A stretch of 64,000 bases of DNA from Candidatus Heimdallarchaeota archaeon. GTDB taxonomy: Archaea > Asgardarchaeota > Heimdallarchaeia > Heimdallarchaeales > Kariarchaeaceae. Position 1 is the stretch's first letter. Every line of letters begins with the position of its first letter. The stretch is taken from positions 372,001 through 436,000 of the forward strand of contig JASBSB010000006.1 of assembly GCA_030149205.1 (NCBI GenBank), in the 5' to 3' direction. The notes below the pieces were generated by a model. That model saw only the letters and a program-made list of their open reading frames with translations, did no database searches and was not told the DNA's origin. The position numbers and the translations under genes are program-made. This document shows positions 2,846 through 63,949 of the stretch, in pieces.

Positions 2846-2930
2846 GCTTTCGTAGCTCAGCTGGTAGAGCGGTTGACTTGTAAGTTTCAAAGAAATCAAC
2901 AGGTCGTGGGTTCGAGTCCCGCCGGAAGCT
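2846..2930 (+). tRNA. tRNA-Thr(TGT) with 12-nt intron at 37/38
   Basis: Acceptor GCTTTCG/CGGAAGC, D arm GCTC..GAGC, anticodon stem GTTGA/TCAAC, T arm GTGGG TTCGAGT CCCGC; anticodon 2879-2881; intron 2883-2894 (AGTTTCAAAGAA). Confidence 0.9.
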
Positions 2931-6464: not shown

Positions 6465-6956
6465 TTGACAACCTTAATGGAAATAGGAAATCAATGGCCA
6501 CTGATAGTTTTACATAATGTCAATGCTTCAAGCAAATGTACAGAATTTGTCAGAATTGGGTCAGCATTTGGGTTCAGAACCTTAATAATCACACAGGCGC
6601 AGGGATCAGCTGCTCAGAATGGGATTCCAAGTGCACAAAAATTAGCTCTCAAGAATAAGCTAAATTTTTTGGCCTTATATTCAGTTGAAGATGTAATTGA
6701 GCTTTTTAACCCTGAGCAGGTTGTACTGATTGCGCCCCCTCCCTTTGGGAAAGAAAATCTCTCACAAGGTGTTATTGATGAGATCAAGGCTCAAAAAACA
6801 GTGGTGGTTTTCGGAGGAAATGACCCAGGTTTGTCAAGAAAGGATCTGGATTTAGGAAGAACGGTTCAGTTGTCTGTTGGGGATATTGGTTCGATTGCCA
6901 CTCTATCACTTACCTTAGCCCTTCTAAAACATGGAAATAATCTATTGCCTGAGTAA
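6465..6956 (+). CDS. Conserved archaeal protein, possibly SPOUT-methyltransferase-like
   Basis: VVVFGGNDPGLSRKDLDLGRTVQLSVGDIGSIATLSLTLAL resembles a SPOUT-type C-terminal cofactor region. Confidence 0.45.
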   Translation: MTTLMEIGNQWPLIVLHNVNASSKCTEFVRIGSAFGFRTLIITQAQGSAAQNGIPSAQKLALKNKLNFLALYSVEDVIELFNPEQVVLIAPPPFGKENLSQGVIDEIKAQKTVVVFGGNDPGLSRKDLDLGRTVQLSVGDIGSIATLSLTLALLKHGNNLLPE

Positions 6957-60858: not shown

Positions 60859-60960
60859 TGCACGAGCCGGGAATTTCGTAGTTTACACTATTTCGAACCC
60901 GGGCCCCCTGCGTTCTGCAAAAATTGGCAGGCAGGCATACTACCACTATACTACTCGTGC
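60859..60960 (-). tRNA. tRNA-Gly(GCC) with two introns (12 nt at 37/38 and 19 nt at 59/60)
   Basis: Acceptor GCACGAG/CTCGTGC; anticodon stem CCTGC/GCAGG; anticodon at 60926-60928; intron 1 60913-60924 with CTGC/GCAG central helix and 3-nt bulges CAA and AAC; intron 2 60873-60891 with TTCG/CGAA central helix and 3-nt bulges AAA and ATT; spliced T arm CCGGG TTCGAAT CCCGG. Confidence 0.93.
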
Positions 60961-63220: not shown

Positions 63221-63949
63221 ATGTTTATAAAAAACGTAGTAAAATTTCTATTGGGATTAACTATATTTGCAGTTATATCCCTATTGTATGCATTGTTTAG
63301 TTCTCCTGGTGGATTTAAAATGGGGGGAATGCAGACCAGTACGTTTGACCTTTCAAAATGGTCTATTGTTCAATTCAGCTTATTTTCAATACAATTCGGT
63401 CTTGTTGTATTCTTAGTGATTTTATATTTTGGGTTTGCACGAAAATCTCTTGAAAATGAAGTCCCAGAAGAGACCCACAAAAAGATCGAAGTGTTTGAGA
63501 AAAAATATTTTTGGATCGCAATAAGCATTTTATTAGTTATGCTGCTTCTAACTGTCGCTATACCTCTCACGACAAATCAACTTGCACAGGCCAGAGATAA
63601 TAGAACCAGAATTAGCTCATCGGATACTCTAATATACGCTCATGCGTTTCAGTTTGGGTTTGAATTTAAGACCAATGGAACTGGTTCAGTAACGAATAAC
63701 ACATGGATGCCCACATTGACATTAATTAAGGATAAACTCTATGAATTTGTTCTGTTTACCTCAGATACAACCCACGGGTTTGGAGTGTACTCACCACAGA
63801 ACTTGCTTGTAGACCAATCACAAATTGTCCCTGGATATAACACGCACTTCCTGATGAAATTTACTGAGACAGGAGTATATACAATTAGATGTATGGAATA
63901 TTGTGGAGCAGGGCATCAAATTATGGAAACCACAATCACAGTGGCTTGA
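63221..63949 (+). CDS. Cytochrome c oxidase subunit II (CuA domain)
   Basis: TSDTTHGFGVYSP..GVYTIRCMEYCGAGHQIMETTI has the CuA ligand set (H, C-x3-C, H, M). Confidence 0.88.
   Translation: MFIKNVVKFLLGLTIFAVISLLYALFSSPGGFKMGGMQTSTFDLSKWSIVQFSLFSIQFGLVVFLVILYFGFARKSLENEVPEETHKKIEVFEKKYFWIAISILLVMLLLTVAIPLTTNQLAQARDNRTRISSSDTLIYAHAFQFGFEFKTNGTGSVTNNTWMPTLTLIKDKLYEFVLFTSDTTHGFGVYSPQNLLVDQSQIVPGYNTHFLMKFTETGVYTIRCMEYCGAGHQIMETTITVA

Follow-up and report, generated by a model that had tools for sequence, protein, structure and literature searches.

The question raised by this locus, which lies in the 64,000-nucleotide stretch of Candidatus Heimdallarchaeota DNA analysed here (the window), is whether a tRNA-Gly(GCC) gene interrupted twice, once in the anticodon loop and once in the T loop, can be a working gene, and what its two inserts would demand of the splicing endonuclease. 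Direct reading of the minus strand gives perfect acceptor (GCACGAG/CTCGTGC), anticodon (CCTGC/GCAGG) and T (CCGGG/CCCGG) stems, and removal of 31 nt of introns from the 102-nt pre-tRNA leaves a standard cloverleaf with stems of 7, 5 and 5 bp, respectively, 71 nt long including the discriminator A and with the T loop TTCGAAT (Table 1). The preliminary description had proposed exactly this gene, with introns of 12 nt at 37/38 and 19 nt at 59/60, and its coordinates are right to the base; the 71-nt product and its T loop are likewise borne out. The interrupted gene is called neither by ARAGORN nor by the Rfam tRNA model at its gathering threshold; after deletion of the T-loop intron, ARAGORN identifies it as Gly-GCC. 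The covariance model R1, which was built from 13 tRNAs broken by T-loop inserts, matches the gene with 73 bits (E = 3.6e-13), the gene itself being a member of the training set. Judged from its sequence, the locus is almost certainly a functional, apparently single-copy gene with two archaeal introns that would be spliced by protein enzymes.

Table 1. Layout of the tRNA-Gly(GCC) gene in the window
Feature	Coordinates	Strand	Read by
Whole tRNA-Gly(GCC) gene; pre-tRNA of 102 nt, ending in the discriminator A (60859)	60859..60960	minus	direct reading, R1 covariance model, ARAGORN
Exon 1 (positions 1-37)	60925..60960	minus	direct reading
Intron, 12 nt at 37/38, relaxed BHB (bulge-helix-loop); CTGC/GCAG central helix, 3′ bulge AAC	60913..60924	minus	
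Exon 2 (positions 38-59)	60892..60912	minus	direct reading
Intron, 19 nt at 59/60, T loop, strict BHB; TTCG/CGAA central helix, bulges AAA and ATT, inner helix TAGT/ACTA	60873..60891	minus	
Exon 3 (positions 60-73)	60859..60872	minus	direct reading

The T-loop intron, ATAGTGTAAACTACGAAAT, begins directly 3′ of A59 and forms a full BHB motif, in which the T stem is followed by the bulge ATT, the central helix, the bulge AAA and an inner helix, the last being the TAGT/ACTA hairpin remarked on previously. The anticodon-loop intron, ATTTTTGCAGAA, begins directly 3′ of A37 and has a central helix with four of four pairs and a 3-nt bulge on the 3′ side, its 5′ side being an open 8-nt loop, CAATTTTT; lacking an inner helix, it takes the relaxed bulge-helix-loop form and not that of a two-bulge BHB. 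The earlier assignment of a 4-bp central helix with two 3-nt bulges to each intron thus holds in full at 59/60, whereas at 37/38 the helix and the 3′ bulge stand and the 5′ bulge has to be given up. The minimum free energy fold of the gene contains both central helices (-37.1 kcal/mol, z = -2.6).

Neither intron is a chance match. Among 57 tRNA-like candidates with any insert between positions 59 and 60 in the gathered loci, the insert itself being unconditioned, 53 have a central helix of four pairs in the exact BHB register, two bases before the exon, and the other nine registers tested give such a helix in at most five of the 57; because the loci were partly collected by patterns and a model that include YGAA, the central helix itself is enriched by selection. 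Base 57, however, covaries with its partner in the intron, the two matching throughout the 53 (34 TTCA/TGAA, 16 TTCG/CGAA and 3 TTCG/CGGA), and the combinations TTCA/CGAA and TTCG/TGAA do not occur among them. This match was not demanded by the patterns; the T-loop scan did exclude an A-C pair at this place, and the 57-candidate test did not. The inner helices of the 22 T-loop introns amount to 89 bp in total, whereas 5000 shuffles average 14 bp and never exceed 36. For the anticodon introns, a central helix with all four pairs lies at the BHB register in 13 of 24, with none at five other registers and with shuffles yielding a mean of 0.5 and a maximum of 4.

The T-loop intron of tRNA-Gly(GCC) exemplifies a trait of the genome as a whole. 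The host genome comprises 3.3 Mb in 12 contigs and is 93.5% complete, and the Rfam tRNA model scores 22 of its tRNA genes above the threshold and gives nine weak matches, several of which are tRNAs broken by T-loop inserts. The genome was searched again with R1, and ARAGORN reads the T-loop-interrupted genes when their T-loop inserts are removed; a loose T-loop pattern, too noisy alone (146 matches versus 107 in the control), was filtered by the T stem and the acceptor stem. The 43 tRNA genes identified in this way include 22 with an intron at 59/60, all in one and the same BHB register, 25 with an intron in the anticodon loop, 11 with both and 7 with none, the anticodons of two genes (L012 and L017) having been read by eye only. 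The total is 47 introns, or 1.09 per gene, a count in which a few anticodon-loop inserts of 28-53 nt may each contain two introns, and 22 of the 47 lie at 59/60, almost all of them as strict BHB motifs. All three glycine isoacceptors found (GCC, CCC and TCC) carry a T-loop intron. Elsewhere in the window, a tRNA-Thr(TGT) gene (2846-2930, plus strand) has a 12-nt anticodon-loop intron, and ARAGORN, run without introns, reports for it the four-base anticodon gtaa.

Relatives at the level of genus, family, order and class also have T-loop introns, of approximately 22-39 nt. The Gly-GCC gene of the sister species (G001) has a T-loop intron of 30 nt and no anticodon intron, and that of a further genome (G009) has a T-loop intron of 29 nt, so that the T-loop site of Gly-GCC is shared and the anticodon intron varies between species. 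A strict T-loop pattern, which misses some T-loop introns and therefore gives lower bounds, occurs one or more times in 148 of 228 Asgard genomes, its matches in a reversed control being few; the host genome ranks highest of the 228 with 21 matches and none in its reversed control, as compared with 11 and 14 in two fully complete genomes of family f26. Among T-loop introns close to 30 nt long, many that belong to different tRNAs and species (for example, L149, L152, L174, L177 and L179), have a TTGTG- or TTGCG-like hairpin loop in common, and copying between genes could account for this resemblance.

The preliminary description had left the subunit composition of EndA to be established. The host genome has separate genes for a catalytic alpha subunit (L001), in which Y130, H138 and K169 are present, and for a non-catalytic, structural beta subunit (L002), which aligns to EndA and by inspection lacks the KFG..Y..H motif of alpha; most relatives also have two genes. 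An RtcB gene is present as well (E = 9e-167). The nearest named relatives of EndA alpha are from a Heimdallarchaeota MAG (64% identity), a Kariarchaeota MAG (54%) and Heimdallarchaeota RS678 (54%), a placement in the Heimdallarchaeota/Kariarchaeota group that rests on one gene and agrees with the earlier supposition of an Asgard genome. Maturation, as the pre-tRNA is predicted to fold, would start with a transcript whose T loop and anticodon loop are each paired with an intron (TTCG/CGAA and CTGC/GCAG, respectively); an EndA probably assembled as (alpha-beta)2 would then cleave every 3-nt bulge 3′ of its second nucleotide, and RtcB would ligate the exons into an ordinary tRNA-Gly of 71 nt.

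From the two introns, the preliminary description had deduced, on condition that the genome is Asgard, an endonuclease with a broad substrate range. EndA alpha aligns without gaps with the EndA of Aeropyrum pernix across the Crenarchaea-specific loop (CSL), a loop of 15-18 residues with a conserved lysine, K44 of Aeropyrum corresponding to K49 of L001. Lysine occupies this position in all 79 related EndA alpha sequences (L001 and L195-L274), which are mostly from Asgard archaea, with some from Methanomethylicota and others, and in the host enzyme K49 would be expected to lie near the active site. The CSL lysine has been linked to broad specificity of EndA (PMC6379350, PMC12397907). Because the enzyme has two subunits and its alpha subunit has the CSL with the conserved lysine, broad substrate specificity is plausible, and the genome's relaxed introns at 37/38 also point to it. 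The T-loop intron, by contrast, is a strict BHB, which according to the literature any archaeal EndA should be able to recognise, and it therefore needs no special enzyme; it is the relaxed intron at the canonical position 37/38, and not the T-loop intron, that requires a broad-specificity enzyme.

The reading of the locus as a functional gene has to be weighed against other explanations of the inserts. They might be insertions in a decaying copy of tRNA-Gly, with an intact copy elsewhere, and it is true that the gene escapes the standard finders and that a second Gly-GCC could sit in the missing part of an incomplete genome. Such decay is nevertheless highly improbable, in view of the perfect stems, the same kind of insert in the CCC and TCC isoacceptors, the conservation of the insert position in the sister species and the fact that neither the Rfam tRNA model nor R1 finds another Gly-GCC gene in the available genome, a second intact copy being what the preliminary description had named as evidence for a pseudogene.

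Alternatively, the T-loop insert might be retained, so that mature tRNAs would have an extended T arm, in which the hairpin could be structurally tolerated. Retention is very improbable, because the universal contact between the T loop and the D loop would be lost in half of the identified tRNAs and because a retained arm would not need the BHB register and the pairing of base 57, both of which are kept; the genes for EndA and RtcB also speak against it. An artefact of assembly or sequencing would fit the 12 contigs and the incompleteness, which are consistent with a metagenome assembly, but is most improbable of all, as 22 genes of this genome share the architecture and it recurs in independently obtained genomes at the level of genus, family, order, class and phylum. 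Splicing of both introns by protein is accordingly the preferred reading of the locus.

Position 59/60 is among the listed sites of archaeal tRNA introns (review PMC4090602). The non-canonical introns of Thermoproteales, other Crenarchaeota and Nanoarchaeota resemble those of the host in being short, in occurring several per tRNA, in having BHB or relaxed BHB motifs and in being accompanied by a two-subunit EndA (PMC4090602); in contrast to those lineages, the host belongs to another one, and nearly half of its introns are concentrated, almost all as strict BHB motifs, at a single position. Its intron load per tRNA gene exceeds the mean of 0.84 for Thermoproteales, among which Pyrobaculum calidifontis has 71 introns in 46 genes (PMC8450103). 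Among Asgard archaea, Atabeyarchaeia and Freyarchaeia have introns in 92-95% of their tRNA genes, often non-canonical and multiple, and the parts of that report consulted name no T-loop bias (PMC11291895), whereas the host is of the Heimdall/Kari group. In the literature searched, which included few subscription journals, no paper on tRNA introns of the Heimdall group was found. EndA alpha shares with the CSL enzyme of Aeropyrum pernix (3p1z/3ajv) the catalytic tyrosine, histidine and lysine as well as the loop, and differs from it at residue 45, which is isoleucine in the host and proline in Aeropyrum. Since the CSL and its lysine occur throughout Asgard archaea and in Methanomethylicota, they are not restricted to Crenarchaea.

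Publications thus already exist on archaeal introns of the BHB type at 59/60 and on Asgard tRNAs rich in introns, and the kind of intron found here is ordinary; what appears to be new, and is new to us, is the concentration of introns on one non-canonical position, an unusual extreme. It is conceivable, although rather doubtful, that 59/60 is a preferred and maintained site in this lineage because the universal TTCRA loop provides half a BHB, and that introns at this site could spread from one tRNA gene to others and could break the 3′ tRNA target of integrating elements, with a protective or regulatory role and not a neutral one. Only three tyrosine-recombinase matches were obtained, none near a catalogued tRNA gene. 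In a genome of the Heimdall/Kari group, standard tRNA finders can overlook about half of the tRNA genes identified, with consequences for the counting of tRNAs and for codon analyses in such genomes. The extension to Asgard archaea of a CSL-type EndA that was thought to be crenarchaeal also bears on the ancestry of the eukaryotic tRNA-splicing endonuclease.

Two other features of the window are on the plus strand. At 6661-6715 there is a marginal hit to the C/D box RNA family SNORD36, scoring 31.4 bits where the threshold is 30 (E = 0.49); it could be an archaeal C/D sRNA or a chance match. An open reading frame at 63221-63949 contains the motif CMEYCGAGH, which by eye is like the CuA site of cytochrome c oxidase subunit II and suggests a capacity for oxygen respiration.
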